Shown here: piece after piece, positions 6,373 to 62,590 of the stretch
How positions within the stretch are numbered: the first letter of the stretch is position 1
Layout of the letters: each line of letters starts with the position of its first letter
DNA from: Crambe crambe
Lineage: Eukaryota; Porifera; Demospongiae; Poecilosclerida; Crambeidae
Direction: 5' to 3'
Assembly: GCA_963924555.1 (NCBI GenBank)
Contig: OZ004582.1
Span: 1,736,001 to 1,800,000, forward strand
DNA length: 64,000 nucleotides
Notes under the pieces: generated by a model
Told to the model about the DNA's origin: nothing
Databases searched by the model: none
What the model saw: the letters and a program-made list of their open reading frames with translations, nothing else
Program-made: the position numbers and the translations under genes

Positions 6373-6578
6373 CAGGGGCGTAGGAAGGGGGGTGCTGGAG
6401 GTGCTGGAGCACCCCCAATACAGAGAGGGGTGCTGAGCACCCCCAATATTTTGATTAACAGATACATTGTAATTAGGAATTTATTGAATAGGTGCAAGAA
6501 TGTGCTATTTTGATGGTCAGGTTAACAGGCAGCTGCTATGTAGTACACTCAGTGATTAATAGTCAGCTTCTTGTCAGA

Positions 6579-7836
6579 ATGTCCAAAAGGCTAAAGCAAA
6601 CCAAGCTCTTTGATACTTTCTCCAAGAGGCAAAGATCTGAAGATGCTGATAGTGAGTCTGAAGATTTAGGTGAAAGGCTACAAGAGTCTGATGAGGAATG
6701 CTTAATAGGTAGTGATAGTGGTGATCATGAAGAACCTCCTGAGGACCATGAGGACGTTAGTGAGTACTGCCAATCTGCATGTTGTACAGAAATGAGCAAG
6801 ACTTACCAACCAACTGATAAACAAACCCTCTCAAGCATGGCTAGTGGAGGCAGAAACTTTATGGCTAGGTGGTATACAGCTTTTCCCTGGCTAACTGTAT
6901 GTACGGTAAGAAAAAAGGCCTTTTGTTTTTACTGTCGGCTAACTGAACAGAAAGGAATCCTTACTTTTAGTTCTAAAGCTGAATCAGCCTTTACTACAAA
7001 AGGCTTCAACAACTGGAGGAAGGCTATGGTGAAGTTTAACAGTCATGCTGCCTCAAGTGCTCATGCAGAGGCTATTATGAAATGGCAAATGCTTCAAGCA
7101 ACGCCCATCAATACTCAACTAAGCACCCAGCTACAGAAACTACAAAATTCAAGACGACAGGCCTTGGTGAAACAACTTCATTGTCTTCGGTATCTTCTTC
7201 GCCAGGGACTGGCAATTCGAGGGCATACAGAAACGGAAGGAAACTTATACCAACTGTTACAGTTGATGGCCGTTTATGATTCTGAAGTAGTGAGTTGGTT
7301 AGAAGAAAGAAAGTAGATAACTATAATGGGATTGAGTACTCTACGGGCTCTGCTTAATAGCATAAAGAAGTGCTCTCCTACTTGGTATGCTATCATTGTT
7401 GATGAAGCTACAGACGTGGCAAATCGGGAGCAGCTGAATTTGTCTATCAGGTGGGTAAACAATGACTATGAAATTAATGAGGATCCTGTTGGGTTATATT
7501 GTCTTCCCAACACAAAAGCTGAAACCATCCATTTTGTAGTATTAGACATTCTTACTCGTTGCTCCCTTTCGCTTGAAATGTGTAGAGGTCAGGCTTATGA
7601 CGGTGCATCCAACATGCAGGGTGTACGGACTGGACTAGCAACTAGATAAACTTCCATTCATTCGAGATGCTTTAGATACAGTCAAGGAGATAGCAAAGTT
7701 AATTAAGTTGTCACCAAAACGATCGCATTTATTTTCACAGAAGCAAATTCAATCTGAAACTCCTGGTGTTAACATCAAACCACTTTGTCCGACAAGATGG
7801 ACGGCTAGAACAGGAGCAATTGAAGCCATTCTATCA
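6579..7836 (+). pseudogene. hAT transposase, N-terminal half (TTF finger + RNase H start)
   Basis: The chosen Met precedes a basic start that includes QTKLFDTF, resembling a PCNA-interaction box. An acidic stretch follows, then a TTF/ZMYM-type zinc segment (FCFYC ... NSHAASSAH), then DUF4371 with LRQGLAIRGH. An in-frame TAG at 7314, probably with a small deletion, interrupts it. The RNase H fold resumes with IIVDEATD (first catalytic Asp) and CRGQAYDGASNMQG (second Asp region). A second break at 7647 loses roughly the segment before LPFIRDAL. The frame then continues through CPTRWTARTGAI to the insertion point. It is inactive as written. Confidence 0.85.
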
Positions 7837-7840
7837 GAGT

Positions 7841-7856
7841 CACGTTGGTTTCAATC
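7841..7856 (+). repeat. Left terminal inverted repeat of the RAG1-like element
   Basis: CACGTTGGTTTCAATC, identical to the complement of 12019-12034. It begins with CAC, like recombination signal heptamers. No nonamer-like block is evident inside this end. Confidence 0.9.
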
Positions 7857-8120
7857 AGGCATTTGCGCTTAATTAAGTTATTGCACGTACTTACGGTATA
7901 ATGAAATTGGTCCCTAGCAACCAGACGCTTGGTTACTATGGCTCTATATGGCCAATAGAGTTGCCTGTTCTTAAAATAACTGTTGGGATGAGGAAACCTA
8001 CACTAGGGAAGCCCCCTCGATCCTTTTGCGCATCGCTTTTGCACGATTTAACAGTACTGCGCACCTGGTTTCTTAGCAACCTTCAAATACAATTGAAGAA
8101 GGCGGTCTGTTCCCAGAGCC

Positions 8121-11100
8121 ATGAATACCGATCAAGATTTACCACAAGGTATTTGCATGTATAAAACTGTAGCAGAAACCACAAATATTCAGTCAGACAG
8201 TAAAGTAAACAGTGTATCTTTTTTTTAACAGCAATGGAGCAACACAAAATGTACCTTCAAAATTTATGTAGAGTGTGTGGTAATAGGATAAAAACATACA
8301 AACACAACAAAATTAAAGAGGTATGTAAAGGAGCCCTGTCAAAACTCTTTGATATAGCTGTGGAGGAAGAAGATGAATTTGTCTCTCCACCATTCATTGC
8401 TGCTACCTTACTTTGAGTCAAGTCCAGAATGCCAAAGAATCTGGCCAATTCAGAGAAACTGATCTAACCCCCAAGGTATGGGCTCCCCACACTGACACAT
8501 GTCAGATCTGTGAGAATGCCCAGATCATCCAAAGGGGTCGACCCAAAAAGCGTAAAGCTAAAGGCAGGCCTAGTGTTGACGACTGTCACTATCAGGGCAG
8601 GAAGATAGTACATCGTTTGAGCCACCTAAACACACACAAATATGTGGACTGTGAACTTCCGTTGCAATACTTTCTTACCACACCACATCTTGATCACTTC
8701 TCCTGCCAAATTTGCCACTCCATTCCCACTGAGCCAATCCAACTCCTGGGCTGCCAACACTTGATGTGCACATCCTGCATACGCAACCAATGTGAAAATG
8801 AAGCCATCGTTTGTTCTTGTGGCAATCCAGTATACGCTGAGCATTTGTCTACCCTCCAACTTTGTAGAACAGCCTCTTGGTTCATTGTCCACAGGATTGT
8901 GGGCAAATTTTGGAACTAAAATATTTACAGTGCCACATGAAATCGAAGTGCACTGATACACCTGTTCCCTCACCTTCATCAATCACTGTTGAACAGCTAC
9001 TAGAACTCCAATCCAAAAATTCACCATCACAGCTCAGAGCACAGACAGTGGGTCTTCTTGTTGAAAAGTTGGCTCCTTCCAATGGCTCTTTAACTTGCCG
9101 ATCATCTTTATCTGTTAAGTTTAATAGAAAACTTGAGTAATGCAATTTCTACTAATAGCCTATATCTTTGGTTCGAGTTACCACACCTCGAGTGGAATCA
9201 AGTGCTGCTTCAGACCGAACCCTGAAGAGGAGGAGTGGTGAGTTGGAACTGGTGAGAGACGTTGTGAGCAAAGGGACACCAAAAGAGCAGTTACAGTATG
9301 AGCTGAAAACATTGACCAAGGAGGACAGAGAAGCCATCCTTGATACTGCCATAGGTGGTTCACCAATTACCATCCCAGCTGATCAGATGCTAGCAATGAA
9401 GGCTGACCTATGCATCACCTGGAACAAACTACGAGACATGAGGCGGTAAATTAATGGTTGACACATACTCACACACTTACAACATAATCTTATGCTCACA
9501 GTTGGATGAAGGCTTGGAAGATCAATCTTGAGAGTGAGCAGAAGGAGAGATCCCTTGCCAACACGCAGGTGGGGCCTAATCTGGCTTCGGAAATGGTTGC
9601 CTTCACCTACACACTTGATGGTGGTGAAGAGGAAATCAGAACTGCTCCCATGGCATATGTTCCTGACCTTGTTGCCAAAGTGAAGCAGTTATTGGAGCAA
9701 AATGACAGGTACATCAATAGAAAATTCTACAACTCAGTTACATAATACTTGCTGTAATATAGACTCGGTAGGCTGAAAGGCAATGAATTCCTTCCATCCA
9801 ATTCCATCTGGATCAAACTTGGAGGGGACAAGGGAGGAAAGAGCATGAAACTCAGCTTTCAGATTGCAATTGTGCTCACCCCAATTCCCCTACCAACACC
9901 TGTGTGTTTGCTGCATTTGAAGCATCAGATACTAGATGTAATCTGCATGTAGCAATGGACAGATACAAGCCCCAGGTAGACGTCCTAAATGGCTTATCAT
10001 GGAGGTGAGGGTCTACTTATCATGACCTTTAACGGGATCAATTATTACGCTGTTGAGTAGAAATTCTGCTGGTGAGAATTTCACCATTAAAATTTTCTTG
10101 TCTGGGGATTACGAGTTCCTTTGCTATATGTATGGACTCACAGGAGCGACAGGTACTTCATAATTAACTTGCCTTGAGATTTTTTAAGACATACTCACTA
10201 GGACGTCACCGGTGCTTATGGTGCCTCAGCACAGCTGACCAAATGGCGAAGCCACGTCAGGAGCGTGGGAGGCTCACACCCAGGACACTGCAAACTATCC
10301 AAGCTGACCATGCAAGGTACCTAGCCGCTGGAGGAAACTTAAAGAATGCCAAGCTTTTCAATAATGCTATTGATTCTCACTTCCTTGACATAGAGCTTGA
10401 CAAGGTATAAAGGATTATTACACAGAGGAATTGTAGCATCACTAGCTCTCAAACCATTTAATAGGTGTGTCTCCCAGGATTGCATATCACCCTTGGGGTA
10501 TTTCTCCGTCTGTTTGTGTTGCTGGAGGACGAGTGCTACAAGCTTGACTTAGAAATGGCAGCAATTGCTTCACCACAGTCAGGTGACAGACCATCATATG
10601 CCGACTATGCCAAAGCAGTACAACGGGAAAGGGTCTTACTTGATGAACAGAGAAAACTGACACAGAGCTGAAATGCCTCAACCAAATTCTCTCCCTGATC
10701 AGCTTGAATTCAAGTAATCCATCGAATGATCCACAGGTACTTGCTGCAGCCAAAATAATAAGAGGATCAGTGACATCGTAAGTAAAAATCACATCATAGA
10801 GTACATACTCATAACATCTTTTAAGGTTAAAGAGCTTGCATCTATCAAAATACGTGCTAGCCGGAAAGATGGCCCATTTGTCCGGTCACTCGATTTTGCT
10901 CTGGCATCATTCAATGTCCACAGACAAGCATATTACAGCGGAAGCTTTGTTGGAAATCATATTCACAGGGCATTGAAGGTATGATAACCACCACTTCTCC
11001 ACATAGATCATTTCACAAATCTATAGGAGGTGAATCTCAAGACATTATGTCAGGCAGTCCCTCACTTAGCTAAAACAAGGTGTCCATCCCTTACAACAAA

Positions 11101-11594
11101 GGCACAATTCATTAGCGATACTTTCCTGAAGTCTTTCACTTTATTTGGGAAGTGCCATGCAGTGTATGATAGCAGCAAGAAGCTGTCAACACGTGAAATA
11201 ATCAACCTTGGTTAGTTAAGCCGGCATACATTTACAATCTAATAATAAATGCAACTCCCTTTTCACAGAAGTGGACATTGACGAGTTCCTGTCGCATTAT
11301 CGTGACTCCTTTCCCGATGCCACCATCACTCCCAAGCTCCATATGTTGGAGGACCATGTCATTCCCTTTTTGAAGCAGTGGGAAGTTGGCTTGGGATTTC
11401 TGGGAGAGCGTGGAGCTGAATCGATCCATGCTCGGTTCAACAGCCTTCGGAGGAACTTCGTAAAAATTACAAACCCATCCAGAAGGCTACATGCCATACT
11501 AAAAGAACACCTGATTCAAGTGTGTCCAGATAATCTGGACAAACAGCCTTCCAAGGAGGCTAGAAAGTTTAAAAAACCAAGACCATCTAAATAA
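8121..11594 (+). pseudogene. RAG1-like transposase, N-terminal RING module plus DDE core
   Basis: About 11 exons: 8121-8148, 8232-~9136, ~9159-9445, 9502-9708, 9763-10004, 10061-10152, 10202-10404, 10465-10736, 10826-10978, 11030-11210, 11269-11594, about 960 codons (mammalian RAG1 is ~1040). The exon 2/3 junction is uncertain. N-terminal RAG1-type modules run in order: LCRVCGN, a WAPHTDTCQIC block, a basic stretch, a C3HC4 RING (FSCQICHSIPTE to SCGNPVY), then a zinc motif (VHCPQDCG ... CHMKSKC). The core carries three candidate catalytic acids: Asp in KLGGDKGG before KLSFQI, Asp in SGDYEFL followed by CLWC, and Glu in GAESIHARF near the C-terminus. These correspond in order and local context to RAG1 D600, D708 with its zinc cysteines, and E962. 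A GNHIHRALK motif sits where RAG1 has GNFARKLM. Single-base frame shifts near 8410, 8875, 9880 and 10660 break it, unless they are assembly errors. Confidence 0.8.
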
Positions 11595-12018
11595 GTTTAA
11601 CCTACATTATCATAATATGCAATTGTGAATCGCTGTAAAACTCTTTCCAAAAAAAGATACATTACCTGATCTTTGTACTGTGTTGTAGCAGAATGGTAAG
11701 TAGAGGTCTGGAACTGGTAGCCAAGCCTGAAAAAAATCTAGCGCTCCTTCTACAGGCCTTTCAAATCCAGCTTCTACCTCCATTTTGTCCGTGATCTAGC
11801 ACATCTTTGGTTAGCCCTTTTTTCCTCAGATTTTTTTGAAGGTGTAGTGCTTGTACTTCTCTATATAAACTGAGACAGCCACGTGTACTAGACTCCGCCC
11901 TGGCACCGGAATACTGGAAAATTCCAGGCATATTACATCAGACAGTGGTGGTTGCTAAGGTGTTGCCCCGTGGTAGGAAATAATTTTTATTACAAGTTTT
12001 TGTCCATGTGCGCAGTCC
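11595..12018 (+). other. 3' untranslated and subterminal part of the RAG1-like element
   Basis: No ORF of note. Read inward from the right end, the terminus is CACGTTG, a 24-bp gap, then ACAAAAACT. Confidence 0.5.
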
Positions 12019-12034
12019 GATTGAAACCAACGTG
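12019..12034 (-). repeat. Right terminal inverted repeat of the RAG1-like element
   Basis: GATTGAAACCAACGTG is the exact complement of the left repeat. It is followed by the GAGT target duplication at 12035-12038. Confidence 0.9.
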
Positions 12035-12949
12035 GAGTATACAGTTTTGATGGATACCTTGGATGAAGTGCATCAGACCACAAAGGATGAATATGGATTG
12101 AAGGTTGCTGGCCTTTTGTCAGCCATGGAAAAATTTTCTACATTGTTTGGTTTGAAGTTGGGATATCTTATTTTTGGAGCTTCTGAAACATTATCAAGGT
12201 CACTGCAAGGTAAAGATACCAGTATTCAAGAAGCTATTTCAGCTGTAAGTCTTGCTAAATCCTTCTACAAGCGGCAGAGAACAGAGAATGCTTTTCAATC
12301 ATTTTATGATGATGTTGTTACAACTGCTCAAAAACTGAAGATTGGTGAACCCCAACTTCCACGGTATAGGAGAGTGCCCAGACGACTGGATGATGGAAGT
12401 CAGCCTCACAGATACAGCACTCCAAAAGAATACTTCCGACACCAGTTATCAGAGCTTGATAAAAGGTTTGATCAGCAGCAATTGCTATCACCAGTTCTTA
12501 CCCTTGAAAATCTCTTGCTAGAGGCCTCAAATGGACACAGTTATCAGAATCTTGATTCTCTCAAAATTTCTTGTTACAAGAATGATTTCAACTTTGATCG
12601 ACTTCATAGTCAACTTTCGTTATGTGCTGATATGATAAAGCAGGCTTTGCCCACTGTAAAATGTGTAACATCAGTGCGTACCATTTGTGAGGCAATGAAT
12701 ACCAACAACACCTTTAAGTCCATGCTGTCCGAGGTGCATAACCTTCTTCGCTTATACTTAACTGTTCCCATTACTTCAGCCACATCGGAAAGATCTTTCT
12801 CTGCTCTAAGATTTGTTTTGACGTATCTACGATCAACTATGTCTGAACAACGACTCAACAATTGTCTTCTGCTCCACATTGATATAACTGATATTGGAAA
12901 GCAATTCATTTGTACTCCAGAAAGACGATCATATTTTGGAACCTTTTAA
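12035..12949 (+). pseudogene. hAT transposase, C-terminal half with dimerisation domain
   Basis: This part is continuous from the insertion site to the stop, about 300 residues. It starts with YTVLMDTLDEVH, then LSAMEKFSTLFGLKLGYLIFGASE, a ZMYM-type spacer, LPRYRRVPRRLDDGSQPH, and the hAT C-terminal motif SATSERSFSAL with the catalytic Glu and the following YLRSTM. It follows directly on the N-terminal half once the nested element is removed. The long helical insertion is intact. Codons upstream of 12035 in the same frame belong to the nested element. Confidence 0.9.
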
Positions 12950-26854: not shown

Positions 26855-28610
26855 TGAACTATTTTTTTACAGATTTAGTAGTGGCCTTCTTACAATCCTT
26901 TAATAATTCTTCAGGCAAGTTTGAGTCTACGCAACAGTCCTCACAGTTGAACTTAATGGACATTAGGGATATGATTGTTGACTGGCTTAAATTAGAACGC
27001 TGATCTGTGTGAATTTTACGTAAAATTGAAAAACCACGTTCTGAGTCAGCATTTGAAGCTGGAATTGTCAACAGTCCCATCATCAGCTTGCAGAGGGAGG
27101 GAAATCTGGGCTGGCCATCAAGTGACTAACATCCCACCAATCCTTCCTATTCGTGGCTTCTCAGTTTCATCAGCAGCTGTATATTCATCAGGGGTGGGAA
27201 GATCCATAGGGGACATAAGCATTCATCTCTAAGTTCATCCAGATTAGAATTATTTGATAACTCTAGTTGAGGAAAACGCTTTGCTAAGCTAAGAACTGTT
27301 TCAATAGACGATGTGTTTAATTTTGTAGGCTGAAGAATTTCTAAATCTTTAAAAAGACTGTCACCAAATGGGAATTTTTTAATCATAGGGCTAGGGCTAG
27401 ATTTTTTTTCACAGCATCAAAAAATGGTTTGGTATCATGCTCTTGCTCTAATTCTGCAACCGAAATCCATGTATTACTACCAATTCCTAAATGCTCTTTT
27501 TCTAACTGGTTATCAAATTTAAGATTTTTAAAGTTTTCACCTGCAGCCTGAATTGAAGCAGTAGTTAGAACATTTGCTGCATACAGCTTCACTAACCTGT
27601 TCATTTCAGTATATAATTGGCAAGTGGTGTTTTCATATGACTTTTGAAAGACCCGGTTAAAACGATCCATATGTGGAAGTATGAAAGAAAGAAAATGAAG
27701 CAGAGGAAGAGTTAACGGATTCTCAAGTCTAGCAGTTATGGTCTGAACTTTACTTGTTTGGTCATTACATGACAAAGAATAAGATTTCAACCCATCATAC
27801 TGATCGATATAGCGACCAACACATCGAAGAAGACTGAGCCAGCGTGTAGGACAATGAATTGATCAATATCTACTGGTAATGCTTCCATTCCAGCTTTAAC
27901 AGTGAGATCAGCAAGGTGACAGATACAGCCAACATCATGAAGGAAAGGATTTTCGTTTTTGTACCCCCGACCTAGTTCCTTTCATCACATTTGTAGTATC
28001 TGACATGAAAGCAAGGGCTTTAGTAAAATCTATGCTGAACTTTGCTAAAGATGACTTCAGAGCACCAAAAAGATTACTTGCTGTACCTTGTCCAAAAATC
28101 TTGTTCGAATGTCGCCAACTTCTGGATCAAGAACCCTCACAAGTATTATAACAAGTCTTGTCATTGGACTTGTCAATCATGATTGAAAGTGGATTGCTCA
28201 AATTTTTTCATTATTTTTTTAGTGTAAAAGGGGGCAAGTGCTTCATTAACAATAGCTGTGCACTTTGTACGAGCACATGAGAACTTTTTGGCGACTTCGG
28301 AATCTTTAAAAAATTTTAGAAAAAGTTTTGTTGTGCTTAGCAACGTATAAGGACCAGCGAGTTTCAGCTTCAATAACAGACTGAGATATATTAGGCTGGA
28401 AAAAGGTGGAAACAGACCAAGATGAAGATGCTCGAGCCATTTCGATGTGATGCTTCACACCAACATGCTTGGTAACATCATTTCTCCCTCCATGCGAGAC
28501 ACTAATGTCAATACCACAGATGATGACATAAAACAAGGGTGGGAGAGAAAGGGAGGGGAAATTAGCTTTAGCTTGTGAAAGCAGCTGTAGCCCACGAGGT
28601 ACAGTTACTA
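26855..28610 (-). pseudogene. hAT transposase, near full length but decayed
   Basis: Reading down the minus strand, a BED/TTF-like segment comes first (SHGGRNDVTKHVGVKHH, with upstream cysteines partly lost), then SVIEAETRWSLYVAKHN, FKDSEVAKKFSCARTKC, and MIDKSNDKT with the first catalytic Asp near 28180. A FMSDTTNVMKG / HDVGCICHLADLTVKAG block follows near 27950, then a helical insertion (27383-27790) and the C-terminal SERGFSILRKIHTDQRSNLS dimerisation motif near 27030. At least five stops or shifts separate these. Clear termini were not identified. Confidence 0.8.
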
Positions 28611-38334: not shown

Positions 38335-38988
38335 ACAGTTGTCGTCCAGCTGACTGTAAATTCGACAATACTCTAATTAAAGCACAATGCGTGACGTAAA
38401 ATGTTTGCTGACATCATTATTAATGCTCTAAATAAAGCGCACCGTAGTAAGTGTGTAAGGGTTCGAGTGTTGATACCAAGTACCAGTACCTGAGTTGAAA
38501 ACTAATATAAGAGTTCGGTTCAAGTTTCAGATCCCAAGTTTCAAGACAGAAAACCTATTCTATTATCAAAGAAATGTTCCTCCCCTTGCACTTATAATCT
38601 GGCGTAGCCAGCCCCGACTCCATTAGCACTGATTTTCATAGGTCCCTTGATACCAGACGGTAGGAGTATAATTATATCAAAGTTATTTTCCTACCTACTT
38701 AGTTAGTTCACTTGGAGAGTCTGCAGATGCTTCCTTTTCCCTGTCCTTGTGCCTGAATGGAGGGAGGGAGTTAGAGTGAGAATTAAGAAGACCATGAAGC
38801 TTACAGGAATATTACATTCACCACTAATAATATTACTCCTTTGTGGGTGTTCCCTGAATGCTGCTAGGCATTCTACATCCCATGGGTGCCATTCTAGCGC
38901 CCCATAGAGTTTCTGAAACAAGGGTATTATTTTACACTTTTTATTTACACTGCAAGAGAGTAGCCATAACTACCCAATTTTAACAGTG
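38335..38988. other. Right subterminal zone of the two-gene element
   Basis: No gene. It contains ggtgttccc and acactttttatttacactg words that echo the left subterminal zone and lead to the CAATTTTAACAGTG end. Confidence 0.5.
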
Positions 38989-39981
38989 TGGGGGACGGCT
39001 CCCTTGCTGCCAGCGGGACCTGTGAATGGAAAAGAGGAAGGTTATTTCTTGAAATTGCATCTGCTGCTGTGTTACCAAACTAAGTTTCTTGCCTAACCAC
39101 TCTTCCACTAGCAACTTCAGGTCTCTTAATTTTTCTCTTGGGAGCCTGAGAACCAGTGCTGTTGTGGAATCTGGAGGAGCCACAATCAGAAAGTCATCTA
39201 GATAATGAAAGATTACTTCCACCCCTTCTTCCTTTACTCTCCATTCCAATGCATCGGCAATTGCTGTGAATATTTTGGGGGCCGAGCCGAATGGCAACAC
39301 TGAATCCACATAGAGAGCTCCATCCCAAAGCATCCCCAGCAGTGCCCGGTCTTCAGAATGTACTGGTACAATTCTATAAGCACTCTTGATATCCACTTTT
39401 GCCAACCTGGTGCCCCTGCCCATTCGCAGGATTTCTTTTGCTGCGTCATCTACACTGACATATGATAAGGAACATAGGCCTGGTTCAATGCCATCGTTAA
39501 CACTGAATCCCTCTGGGGCAGAGAGATCCAAAATAAGCCGCCAGTTACCTGAATTCCCCTTAGGAATGACGCCAAACCTGCTTGTGTGTACCCCTGGCAA
39601 CGCTTGGGGATCAAATGGGCCTAGCAGACGCCACAAGGAGCACTCCTTGGCGATATAATCCCTCACCACCTCAGGATGTTCTCCTGCCAACCGCATGTTT
39701 GCCTTGGCTGCCTTGCATCTGTGGTGGGTGTAGTTGTAGCCAATCCTAAAACCCTCTCTGATGCCCTGCACGATATAATCATCGAAATGGCTGTCGGGGT
39801 GATTAGTAAGCAGGCCTGCCAATCCTCCCACCGCAATGGAGATGTGCTTTAACTCTACTGGCACTACCCTAGGCCGGGCTCTCCTTCCTTGTTCCAGTCC
39901 CCAGAGGTCATTGATAACTGCAAGAGCATGAAATTCAGCTCTCACCCTTATAACCTGAGTAACCTTAATTAGCACCCACAA
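38989..39981 (-). pseudogene. DIRS-like reverse transcriptase, 5' side of split gene
   Basis: A continuous minus-strand frame. It has GIREGFRIGYNY, SRFGVIPKGNSGNWRLILDLS, LCSLSYVSVDDAAKEIL, VDIKSAYRIVPVH and the catalytic HYLDDFLIV. The RNase H domain is mostly deleted: right after LVEEWLGKKLSLV the sequence jumps to AADAISRNNL, normally the RNase H end. The frame then runs into the insertion point at 38989 and continues in the recombinase half at 29692. The RT motifs look intact, so this copy is not ancient. Confidence 0.85.
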
Positions 39982-41521: not shown

Positions 41522-42621
41522 TTAAATGATTTTGTTACTATATATACCAGGGTGAGAAATCCACCCCCTACAATCTTCAGCAGTTATTGCAGCGAAACTT
41601 GCCAATAATGCTGTTTCCATATCAAGTTCCTCTTCTGGATCAATAGTTTTTAATTGTGACTTCACTTTTGAAAAAGCCTGCTCAATGGGATTCAGGTCAG
41701 GTGAATATGGTGGAAGAAAATGTACTAACACACCAATATCTCTAAGTGTTGACACCACTTCTGCACAATGATGTATAGAGCAGTAGTCCAGTATGACTAT
41801 AGAATGAGGTGAATATGGTGGAAGAAAATGTACTAACACACCAATATCTCTAAGTGTTGACACCACTTCTGCACAATGATGTATAGAGCAGTAGTCCAGT
41901 ATGACTATAGAATGAGGATTTATTCCATTGAAAGGCATTAGGTGTGGAATAAGGCAAGTCTGGACGAAATCATAAAATATATTACCATCACTAGTCGTTC
42001 TGATCATTTTAACATCCAAAACACCATAGACTGACATGCATGAGATAGCCGATACCCTTTCTCCTCTGAATAATAAGGTATTCAGGTTTTCCACGCACAC
42101 TGTAACCATATTTCCGTAAATTATTCCTATGGTCTGCTCCAGTTTCATCTACAAATACGAACATAATGGGAGAATATAAATGATACATCAATGATATACT
42201 GCTCCCTCAAAAAAGTATCCTGCTGTGTGGCAACAATACGGAGCCTCTGATGAGTAAATCCACTTTTACATAAAAACTTGCAAATAGTTGATATGCTTAT
42301 TTCGATCATCAACACATCCTCCAGTTCTTTCTGTATTTCTCGTAGATAAATCCCAGGTCTTTGTAATACAGTATTTAAAATAAATAGTTTCCCAGGGTTT
42401 GTAAGTTCTCTATAGGTTCTGTTGATAGGATAAGGTCTCTTTGCAACTGATCCAGTTGAGTGAAAGAGATGTAAGGTACGTAAAACAGTAGACTCATCAA
42501 CATTTAGGTTCCTAGCAATCACAGAATATGTCAGTCCAAGAGCTTCCCTTTGCCATACAAATCTCCATCGGAGGTCCTCATCATAAGCTGATGTCCGCCA
42601 AGATTCACAGGAAGACATCAT
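41522..42621 (-). pseudogene. Tc1/IS630-type DDE transposase with 108-bp duplication
   Basis: The N-terminal helix-turn-helix region (DLRWRFVWQREALGLTYSVI ... NVDESTVLRTLHLF) is followed by a linker and PGIYLREIQKELEDV. After one frame shift near 42150 comes FVFVDETGADHRN (first Asp), then VILDYCSIHHCAEVV (second Asp) and LPPYSPDLNPIEQAFSKVK (Glu). The segment between the second Asp and YSP is present twice: 41701-41808 and 41809-41916 are identical, adding 36 residues in frame. The duplication would disturb the catalytic fold. Outer inverted repeats were not identified. Confidence 0.85.
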
Positions 42622-50115: not shown

Positions 50116-51730
50116 CTAGTTACCAGCACAGCCAACAAGAGTGCTCAGTAGGTTGCCAGCTCTTTCTGTTGGTAGCTGCAAGCCACAAGGATCTTCTGCT
50201 ATAAAAACTGACACCACAGCCTCTGTAGGATCGCTTCGATCAACTGCACAAGCACGGATAGCTATGCTTGGAGGGTCTAAGGACAACTTGTCAGCACTCA
50301 TTGTAGCTTTTTCCCAAAATAAATCAAACATTTGGTCAGTTCTTATGGACTGAAGAGTCTTCACAGTAAGATTAGCACTTTGCTGACCTTCAGCTGCCGA
50401 TAAAGATTGGTTTTGTAAGGTTTTGCTCAAGTTATCTGTGTTGGAGTACAAGCTCCCCCAGTAAACAACTAAATAAGAATCAAATTTTTCCATGATGGCA
50501 GTAACTCCAATAAGATGACCAATGATTTCAGTATCTTTTCTTCTCATAGCTGCTGTAGTACAGAGTAATTGGAAATAATACTTGCTAAAGCATCACCTCT
50601 TACGGTCCAACGTGTTGGACAAAGTACACGTATGCCTGGGCTTTCTGGAGCCAACTCTTATTTTATTTTCTGAAAAAGTGAATCCCTCCGAGGTGAAAAC
50701 TTTATTAGCTAGACCACTTCGAATGCCCGACATGTTACTGGCCCCATCATAACACTGCCCTCTTATTTTTTGTGTAGAAAGATTTTAGATTCAATACTAT
50801 CAACGGTATAGAGGCCAATAAAATCTTCATGCACTGCAAGATTTTCATCTACCCATCGAAGAACTATGACCACTTGTTCTTTGTTACTACAGTCAGTTGC
50901 TTCATCCGACATTATGGTATAAAAACAAGCAGCTTGAATAGAAGAAACTACTTCACGGAGTAATGTTAATCCCATAATTTTTGTAATCTCATTTTGAATT
51001 TGTGGTGATGTATATTTATCACTTTTTTTCTTTACCCACAAAGATATACTAGGGTCTACTTCACTCTGAAATTTAAGTGTTTGCATAAAATTCCCATCAC
51101 TTTCATCACCATGGCCACGCAGAGGTAATCCCTGTCGACAGAGAAACCTTATATTAGACAAAATCTTTAGAAAAACTGAACGATTTATGGCCTTTTCTTT
51201 CATATGCTTTTCAGATAAAAGCTCTCCTACATTTCTAGTAGTAGCTGGAAGGACAATAATAGCTTCAACTGCAGCACGATGAGATTCAGTAACCTCATGC
51301 TTTTTAAAGTTAGAGGTTGCATCCTTCCAATTTGTAAAGCCAGAAGAAATATAAGTCGAATCAACATTGATTGATCTAATTTTTTTCTCTTTCATTGCTT
51401 TGGTACACACAAAGCAAAAGGCAGAATCATTTTTTGCATTGTAATGCAACCATGACCATTTACTGACCAAACTTACGCTTTGGAAAAGGAAATCCATGCT
51501 GAGGCTGGTGAGGCAAGCTACCAATCTCTATCAGCTGGCCACCACAAGCACTAAACTTCTTTGCCATCATAAATATCAGCTGCTTATGCTAGCTACCACT
51601 GGGCATGCTAAGTAGCTAGCAACCTAGATTGCAGTGATTACAGCACACAGTTCTAATTTTTTTGGAGAATCCCGCCTCAAAATCTACTAAGGCCAAAGCC
51701 TTAGTAGCCTTATAGGCTCCTACGCCCCTG
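50116..51730 (-). pseudogene. hAT transposase, 3' truncated, right TIR present
   Basis: The terminus at 51719-51730 reads CAGGGGCGTAGGA inward, the same end as the hAT at 6373. From there a TTF finger (AFCFVCTKAM ... VTESHRAAVEA) precedes LCRQGLPLRGHGDESDGNF and IMSDEATDCSNKEQ. A break near 50760 is followed by a ZMYM-type helical block to 50116. The dimerisation domain is missing. The DDE_Tnp_4 fragment lies at the cut edge. Confidence 0.8.
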
Positions 51731-58999: not shown

Positions 59000-59751
59000 G
59001 TTTTTTTTATCAAACCAGAAGTTGTTAGACAGCACTTAAATGATTTAATAAAGATCAAATTTCATGACCCTACTACTCATCTTCCTGATAATGAATTATT
59101 TATTTGGAGATAGTGCAACTTCCCTAGCTCTCCATCTGAATGATAATGAAGGAGAAATATTTAATGGGTTTTACACGGAGTTGTGCAGTTCTATCAGCGT
59201 TCCCAGTTAACACGCATCCTCTCATTCCTTGATCCCACTGAGAGTCAAGGTATAACACTTTTGATCAGATTGAAGATATTCTTCCAATCCCATTGGACAA
59301 AGGAACTATAAAGTTGGAACACCATGAATTTGTTGTTGATGGTGATGTTGATTCTACGGAGAGTGATGCTATAAAATTTTGGCTTGACATATACAACATG
59401 AAATCACCCATGGGTGAATACAAATACAGGAATCTTGCTACATGTGCTCTGATACTACTTTCAATTCCTGCATCTGATGCAGACTGTGAGCGAGTTTTCA
59501 GTCAAGTACGAAGAATAAAAACAGACTTTCGATCTTCTCTCTCCACAGAAACAATAATAGGATGCCATTTCAACAAGATGAGTAAATGCTGTGAGCTCAC
59601 TACATTTGAAGAGTCATTACTTGTTCGAGCCAAACAATATGTCGTACAAAAAGTCAACCTAATAATAAGTCAACCTAATAATTATTGTTTCTATATTTCT
59701 TTTAAATTAAATATATTCTTAAGATTCACAAAAATACTGAAAATGGCTTAA
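59000..59751 (+). pseudogene. hAT C-terminal domain, third hAT relative
   Basis: ORF 59293-59751 contains LSIPASDADCERVFSQVRRIKT and DFRSSLSTETIIG, the hAT dimerisation motif with its Glu. Upstream 59000-59290 shows related but broken frames. The N-terminal catalytic part is not seen. Confidence 0.75.
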
Positions 59752-61980: not shown

Positions 61981-62590
61981 GTCTCTCAGGTCTTCTGAAT
62001 CTCTATGGTCTCTCCTGAATCTCTATAGTCTCCTCTAGTCTTCTATAGTCTCCTCCAGTATTCTGTGGTCTCCATAATCTCCTCAGTCACTCCTGAATCT
62101 CTATAGTCTCCTCTAGTCTTCTGTAGTCTCCATAGTCTCTTCAGTCTCTCCTGAATCTCTATAGTCTCCTCTAGTCTTCTGTGGTCTCTATAGTCTCCTC
62201 AGTCTCTCCTTAATCTCTATAGTCTCCTCAAGTCTTCCGTGGTCTCCATAGTCTCCTCTAGTCTCCTTAGTCTCTCCTGAATCTCTATAGTCTTCTGTAG
62301 TCTCCATAGTCTCTTCAGTCTAGTCTTCTGTGGTTTCTATAGTCTCCTCAGTCTCTCCTTAATCTCTATAATCTCCTCAAGTTCTCTGTGGTCTCCATAG
62401 TCTTCTCTAGTCTCCTTAGTCTCTCCTGAATCTCTATAGTCTCCTCAAGTCTTCTATGGTCTCCACAGTCTCCTCTAGTCTCCTTAGTCTCTCCTGAATC
62501 TCTATAGTCTCCTCTAGTCTTCTGTAGTCTCCATAGTCTCAATAGTCTCCTCAGTCTCTCCTGAATCTCTATAGTCTCCTCTAAAGCAGC
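61981..62590. repeat. TC-rich minisatellite fused to a transposase ORF
   Basis: Roughly 20 partial repeats of a 'ctcctgaatctctatagtctcctctagtc' unit with variants. On the minus strand the same unit reads as EIQERLRRL-like codons, continuous with the transposase tail, suggesting expansion from coding sequence. Confidence 0.8.

Follow-up and report, generated by a model that had tools for sequence, protein, structure and literature searches.

A probable Chapaev transposon with a RAG1-like N-terminus, nested in a hAT element of the sponge Crambe crambe

What kind of mobile element brings a RAG1-like sequence into the middle of another transposon, and how near it stands to the V(D)J recombinase, are the questions raised by a locus in the sponge Crambe crambe. 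The window, a stretch of 64,000 nucleotides, corresponds to positions 1736001-1800000 of contig C3 in a 143-Mb assembly of 119 contigs, and within it a hAT transposase gene is split by an insert of 4194 bp (7841-12034; positions are those of the window unless a contig is named). The original prediction had described this insert as a precisely nested transposon with a complete RAG1-like cargo, in what looked like an early-branching animal and with a bearing on the origin of V(D)J recombination. The insert is very probably a cut-and-paste DNA transposon of the Chapaev superfamily, whose transposase carries a RAG1-like N-terminus (a zinc domain and a RING) ahead of its DDE core, and which was inserted at a 4-bp GAGT cut in the hAT element.

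The insertion itself is precise and real. Its inverted ends, the 5' terminal inverted repeat CACGTTGGTTTCAATC (7841-7856, forward strand) and its 3' counterpart (12019-12034, reverse strand), are 16 nt each and 100% complementary, and the termini read 5'-CAC...GTG-3'. A target-site duplication, GAGT, flanks the insert on both sides (7837-7840 and 12035-12038), and omission of 7841-12038, that is, of the insert with one GAGT, restores a continuous hAT frame. In addition, an empty paralogous site exists in the same genome: a 422-base query, built by joining both flanks with one GAGT kept, matches G000:C19:2893217-2893610 in one stretch at 99% identity over bases 29-422, with a single GAGT. Throughout the 1001 bases fetched from this C19 locus, a single hAT frame is open and crosses the site at ...ILSEYTVL..., again with one GAGT. 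The nested insertion, the exact ends and the in-frame join stand as originally described. A chance inverted repeat is ruled out, because the empty site and further copies in the genome exist. The hAT sequences of the window and C19 align in three pieces of 241, 193 and 490 columns, which contain 0, 1 and 3 mismatches respectively, length differences besides, and because the twins differ by so few mismatches (4 over ~900 aligned bases), the insertion is probably recent. The nested insertion and its empty twin form a clean example of a 4-bp duplication.

Further copies, for which a search of the genome had been proposed, were found both with the ends and by DNA comparison. The 16-mer end occurs at nine exact places in the 143-Mb genome, seven of them outside the window's own pair (about 0.07 expected with even base use). 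With up to two mismatches there are 67 places as against 65 for a reversed-pattern control, no excess, and only exact and one-mismatch places therefore carry weight. Among these, L013, L015 and L016 have no element beside them and were dropped as copies, as they hold nothing more than 16-mers resembling the terminal repeat. The DNA search returned 46 matching pieces, the window's own included. L010 (C3:2069569-2072622) has the same ends and is 94-98% identical in two pieces, with an internal deletion. Two further loci lie on C5: L009, which aligns in four pieces at 95-99% identity, and L011, a relative that is rearranged and has GAGT adjoining both ends. A sister family, about 67% alike to the window element in alignable DNA, consists of L047 and four loci that are 96.7-99.3% identical to it over their longest pieces, the shorter pieces of L051 being ~93% identical. 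Two full-length sister copies (4216 and 4233 bp) have 13-bp ends, CACGGGTGTTTTG, and the duplications of L047 and L048 are exact (CCTC and GGGT). Over the RAG1-like region, an open exon of 279 aa survives in the sister family, and the frame stays open for 321 aa in L010 and for 285 aa in L009. One family in this genome is young.

A comparison of the window and sister proteins, in which 504 of 970 aligned codons agree (overlapping alignment pieces counted), gives differences of 0.39, 0.26 and 0.61 at codon positions 1, 2 and 3, a pattern that indicates selection at the protein level. The inverted ends of the two families differ, and subterminal blocks are common to them: when window positions 7841-7920 and 11955-12034 are set against L047 (2197-6412), CGCTTAATTAA recurs near the 5' end and, read inwards, CATGGACA and AACTTGTAA recur near the 3' end. 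These blocks are possible candidates for transposase binding sites.

Across this genome, Pfam gives 18 RAG1_imp_bd and 23 DUF1280 matches, all above cut-off, with the window copy in neither list. Fourteen control genomes gave no match to either family, and those named are bacteria and archaea, which are uninformative on animals. Contig C3, 6.8% of the assembly, holds 12 of the 23 DUF1280, 8 of the 18 RAG1_imp_bd and 41 of the 150 scored hAT matches (280 candidates), all lying within 0.3-5.3 Mb except one DUF1280 and one RAG1_imp_bd match near 8.87 Mb. This pile-up may mark an arm rich in transposable elements or a peculiarity of the chromosome.

The assignment to Chapaev comes from the protein together with the ends and the duplications. 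Fourteen frame segments of the insert were joined into a reading of 964 residues, in which Pfam finds DUF1280 (PF06918) at E=1.6e-14 (54.5 bits, cut-off 25) and RAG1_imp_bd (PF12560) at E=3.6e-6 (27.2 bits, cut-off 23.3), with RING models scoring below their own cut-offs; for the window exons taken singly, DUF1280 has no listed match. The joined reading matches five Pfam families, and the core family of RAG1 is none of them; it is likewise absent from the 25 families shown, out of 33, for 16 relatives. DUF1280 has been identified with Chapaev transposases, and RAG1 and DUF1280 have been placed together in one small RNase-H-like clade (PMC3985635). The protein thus falls inside the RAG1/Transib/Chapaev grouping that had been predicted for it, and does so as a Chapaev. 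All Chapaev hallmarks described in PMC4079192, namely a target-site duplication of 3-4 bp, CAC/GTG termini, DDE, C(2)C, LH and H(4)H, are present in the element, the motifs being scored with patterns written for the family. Moreover, two Chapaev subgroups have been described in which a Chapa zinc domain is followed by a RING, as in RAG1 (PMC4411706), and the element fits these RING-bearing subgroups by published description.

Relatives occur in other animals. Among 8000 candidates scored, a protein search gave three matches, headed by the full-length LOC124809337 of Hydra vulgaris (P0001; 29% identity over 97% of the window protein), and a search with the P0001 core gave 16 proteins including the query, three of them from Ephydatia muelleri. 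A EukProt entry from the same search combines RING, RAG1_imp_bd and DUF1280; its prefix 'scpid' we take to stand for Sycon. LOC124809337 and one of the Ephydatia proteins (EMCRGX_G007860, P0013), which belong to the same protein family as the window protein, are labelled uncharacterised or hypothetical at their source.

How far the likeness to RAG1 extends differs between the two halves of the protein. The first coding part (8234-8862, forward strand, as are all coding features of the insert) holds the RAG1-like N-terminal zinc region and the RING; RAG1_imp_bd lies at about 8339-8559 and the RING at about 8701-8823, as converted from residues 36-109 and 157-197, and a segment behind the RING, at 8868-9137, is by eye zinc-finger-like. 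When searched on its own, the window protein hits mouse RAG1 with E=3.1e-5 for the full sequence, its best stretch (query 70-236) reaching 0.0024 by itself. Profiles of relatives from which the window protein was absent give E=1.3e-8 against RAG1 144-488 (16 members) and E=1.8e-17 against mouse RAG1 101-384 (21 members, several of them fragments). The best chain other than RAG1 for the latter profile, among the best 60 of 136 matches, is BRCA1 at 1.2e-7. A resemblance to RAG1 through the RING alone was rejected in view of this gap and of the PF12560 match, which lies outside the RING. Judged by sequence, the N-terminus is truly RAG1-like.

The core begins in the exons at 9174-10002 (presumptive introns at ~9447-9502 and ~9707-9760), which contain a candidate for the first catalytic Asp in GGDKGG (9827-9829). 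It continues in exons at 10059-10778, with the second Asp candidate (10107-10109), CLWC (10213-10224) and LH (10480-10485), and in the last exons at 10826-11594, with HMLEDH (11340-11357), the catalytic Glu candidate (11418-11420) and a stop codon ending at 11594. Against RAG1, a match of the core as a whole was not obtained: in hhalign the C-terminal part alone aligns, with RAG1 H937, H942 and E962 opposite H, H and E of the family. The score of 32.7 exceeds the best (26.3) of 160 composition shuffles, none of which reaches it. HHalign itself assigns a low probability (22% when 16 sequences are used, 6.5% with 13). The core appears to resemble RAG1 weakly, with active-site positions in register. 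Some motif spacings agree closely. The distance from the second Asp to CxxC is 19 in nine of nine family proteins and in RAG1, that from Asp to LH is 86-92 as against 87, and that from the first His to Glu is 26-27 in all eight scorable proteins (P0010, with its C-terminus cut, being left out) as against 25. Other distances do not: 70-75 residues separate the two Asp in the family and 108 in RAG1, and 333-381 separate the second Asp from Glu as against 254. The RAG1-like character originally claimed holds for the N-terminus and the motif layout, and the family of the core is very probably that of Chapaev.

Several observations weigh against this picture, or against parts of it. Nine junctions of the joined reading resemble short introns (GT...AG by eye), the first, 36 bases at 9138-9173, without clear borders, and four further frame changes have no intron: near 8407, within the first coding part; near 8865, ahead of the post-RING segment; near 9868, in the exons that hold the start of the core; and near 10662, in the exons with CLWC and LH. 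Length differences from L010 and L009 mark the regions near 8407 and 8865. As read, the window copy is broken and cannot encode an unbroken transposase, so the element is not complete in the sense first proposed; nor is the RAG1-like protein a cargo, being the element's own Chapaev transposase. On a single exon, RAG1_imp_bd scores 16.5 bits, below its cut-off, and the roles of the catalytic residues are predictions from alignment. Exact 4-bp duplications without rearrangement are found in three of the seven copies with two readable ends (the window, L047 and L048; L049, with one end missing, and the partial L050 do not enter the tally). L010 and L051 have none, L011 has an exact one in a rearranged copy, and at L009 three of four bases agree (GCAT/GTAT), with ~0.48 kb of other DNA between the left end and the element-like part. 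Furthermore, EnSpm/CACTA, Mirage, Chapaev, Transib and RAG1 are all reported to have C(2)C and H(3-4)H (PMC12730594), so this series alone does not single out Chapaev, and the weight rests on DUF1280 and the duplications.

Three other accounts of the insert have been considered. That it is a Transib or an element of the RAGL/ProtoRAG type, directly related to the V(D)J recombinase, would agree with the N-terminal profile match to RAG1 101-384, with the identical or near-identical spacings around CxxC, LH and the His-Glu pair, and with the weak core alignment over H937, H942 and E962 that no shuffle equals. Nevertheless, this is highly improbable, as a 5-bp target-site duplication of the RAG1/RAGL/Transib type was not found (GAGT, CCTC and GGGT all have 4 bp), the core is named by PF06918, with the RAG1 core family absent from the Pfam families listed, and the Asp-Asp and Asp-Glu distances depart from those of RAG1. 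No Pfam match to a RAG2 family was found in nine of the ten non-transposase frames of at least 70 aa in the element, a scan that a partner encoded in short exons would escape; a full RAGL element is ruled out by the duplication length together with this absence. Across the genome PF03089, the RAG2 family, gave no match either, but nor did its control, which makes that silence uninformative. More remote still, to the point of being negligible, is the notion of a host gene that was domesticated from a Chapaev, contains RING and transposase domains and is no longer mobile: the selection seen between the families would suit it, though mobile elements show such selection too, while the precise ends, the duplication, the empty site, the frame breaks of the window copy and the many diverged copies in the genome all speak against it. 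The third account refines the Chapaev reading and is evenly balanced in our judgement, namely that the window copy was already broken when it moved and was mobilized in trans by a working relative. It draws on the contrast between the four frame changes here and the open frames in L010 and L009, and on the near-identity of the hAT twins, a hint that the insertion is too recent for much decay to have followed it; on the other hand, the frame changes may postdate the insertion or be assembly errors.

For the Chapaev transposon favoured here, the ends, the duplication, the empty site, the sister copies, the domain content and the motif order are established, and a course of events may be proposed around them. 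A transposase, either the element's own or that of another copy, would recognize the CAC...GTG ends, and the element would be excised and joined to a cut at GAGT in the hAT coding region, staggered by 4 bp because the duplications observed are of that length. The chemistry would be cutting and joining of the RNase-H-like DDE kind, as in RAG1, and had the frames been disrupted before the insertion, the protein would have been supplied in trans. The RING may regulate the protein through ubiquitin ligation, an activity that titles among the references of PMC4411706 report for RAG1.

Two competing accounts of the RAG1 N-terminus have been put forward. In one, Transib fused with an N-RAG-TP-like element (PMC8355894); in the other, N-terminus and core arose together, long ago, in Chapaev-like transposases (PMC4411706). 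It may be suggested, tentatively and with some doubt, that a single lineage of transposases already had the entire RAG1 architecture (zinc region at the N-terminus, RING, post-RING finger and a DDE core of equal zinc-ligand spacing) before sponges diverged from other animals. If so, the N-terminus was not a later addition by an N-RAG-TP-like fusion, and the living sponge Chapaevs, at least one family of them recently mobile, are working cousins of that ancestor. With near-identical copies and long open exons, the sponge elements are material for testing the joint-origin account: they make it possible to ask if a RAG1-like N-terminus contributes to transposition and if the core performs DNA joining as RAG1 does. 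The link to V(D)J recombination anticipated for this locus is indirect and has already been proposed for Chapaevs (PMC4411706), and the 4-bp duplication and the lack of a RAG2-like match distinguish the element from RAGL. The existence of RING-bearing Chapaevs and what they imply for RAG1 have been in print since 2015; the addition here is new families in a sponge, one of them young, which extends the RAG1-like N-terminus to young elements there. A literature search found no title or opening of an abstract on RING-bearing Chapaevs in sponges, a weak sign of newness with most subscription journals and apparently Repbase Reports outside its coverage, and PMC4298943 was discarded, as 'sponge' there refers to the transposon Spongebob.

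The host hAT element spans about 6.4-13.2 kb (limits by eye). Its transposase consists of a 5' part with DUF4371 (6555-7840, forward strand; E=9.8e-11 on one piece), which contains a stop at 7314-7316 and is shorter than the C19 copy near 7650, and a 3' part with the hAT dimerisation domain (12039-12949, forward strand; Dimer_Tnp_hAT, E=6.9e-9), in frame with the former once the insert and one GAGT are removed. At C19, the dimerisation domain lies ~0.7 kb past the junction, inside an open frame of 805 aa and by arithmetic in the same frame, and an unbroken hAT twin seems to reside there. The best candidate for the 8-bp hAT duplication agrees at 7 of 8 bases (GTGTTATT/ATGTTATT, near ~6375 and 13213, by eye). 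A second hAT fragment lies at 50763-51527 (reverse strand; DUF4371, E=1.1e-17), and the dimerisation domain is matched twice more, at 26946-27113 (reverse; G000:C3:1762946-1763113) and 59419-59553 (forward; G000:C3:1795419-1795553). The window also contains a DDE_3 transposase fragment (41522-42148, reverse; E=4.4e-26) with an exact 108-bp tandem duplication at 41699-41917, a reverse transcriptase fragment (RVT_1, 38980-39981, reverse; E=7.3e-8) and an imperfect long tandem array of TCTCTATAGTCTCC-like units (61998-62583).

The early-branching host that had been predicted gains indirect support from the mitochondrial contig, C119, where cox1 with seven in-frame TGA is readable with code 4 and ATP-synthase subunit c is matched. 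A mitochondrial atp9 and the neighbouring gene order, here read by eye, are typical of demosponges. An open match to subunit c of 85 aa, with the same frame length as on C119, lies at G000:C3:2378437-2378625, possibly a mitochondrial insertion in the nucleus.

In comparison with vertebrate RAG1, the N-terminal zinc region, the RING and the part behind it are collinear, the core motifs come in the same order and three spacings are near-equal; the element differs in a core that can barely be aligned, in its Asp-Asp and Asp-Glu distances, in its mobility, in its 4-bp duplications and in the lack of a detected RAG2. The zinc region and RING are of RAG1 type without being exclusive to RAG1, as both are reported in Chapaevs (PMC4411706). 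With RAGL/ProtoRAG and Transib it shares a DDE core in which C(2)C and H(3-4)H occur (for Transib and RAG1, PMC12730594), and a RAGL element likewise has CAC at its ends (PMC9435367). However, 5-bp duplications are described for Transib and RAG1/2 (PMC8355894) and for the algal RAGL (PMC9435367), unlike the 4 bp of the window and sister elements; RAGL has a RAG2L partner, for which the scanned frames offered no counterpart, and Transib lacks the N-terminal part that is present here (both PMC7204232). N-RAG-TP of Aplysia also carries sequence like the RAG1 N-terminus on a transposon and, by its description in PMC8355894, consists entirely of it. Set beside known Chapaevs, the sponge families appear new, with their own 16-bp and 13-bp ends, nine presumptive short introns and, in the window, a broken copy. 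With the RING-bearing Chapaevs of the CMC group they share CAC/GTG ends, a 4-bp duplication, PF06918, the C(2)C/LH/H(4)H series and a zinc domain followed by a RING.

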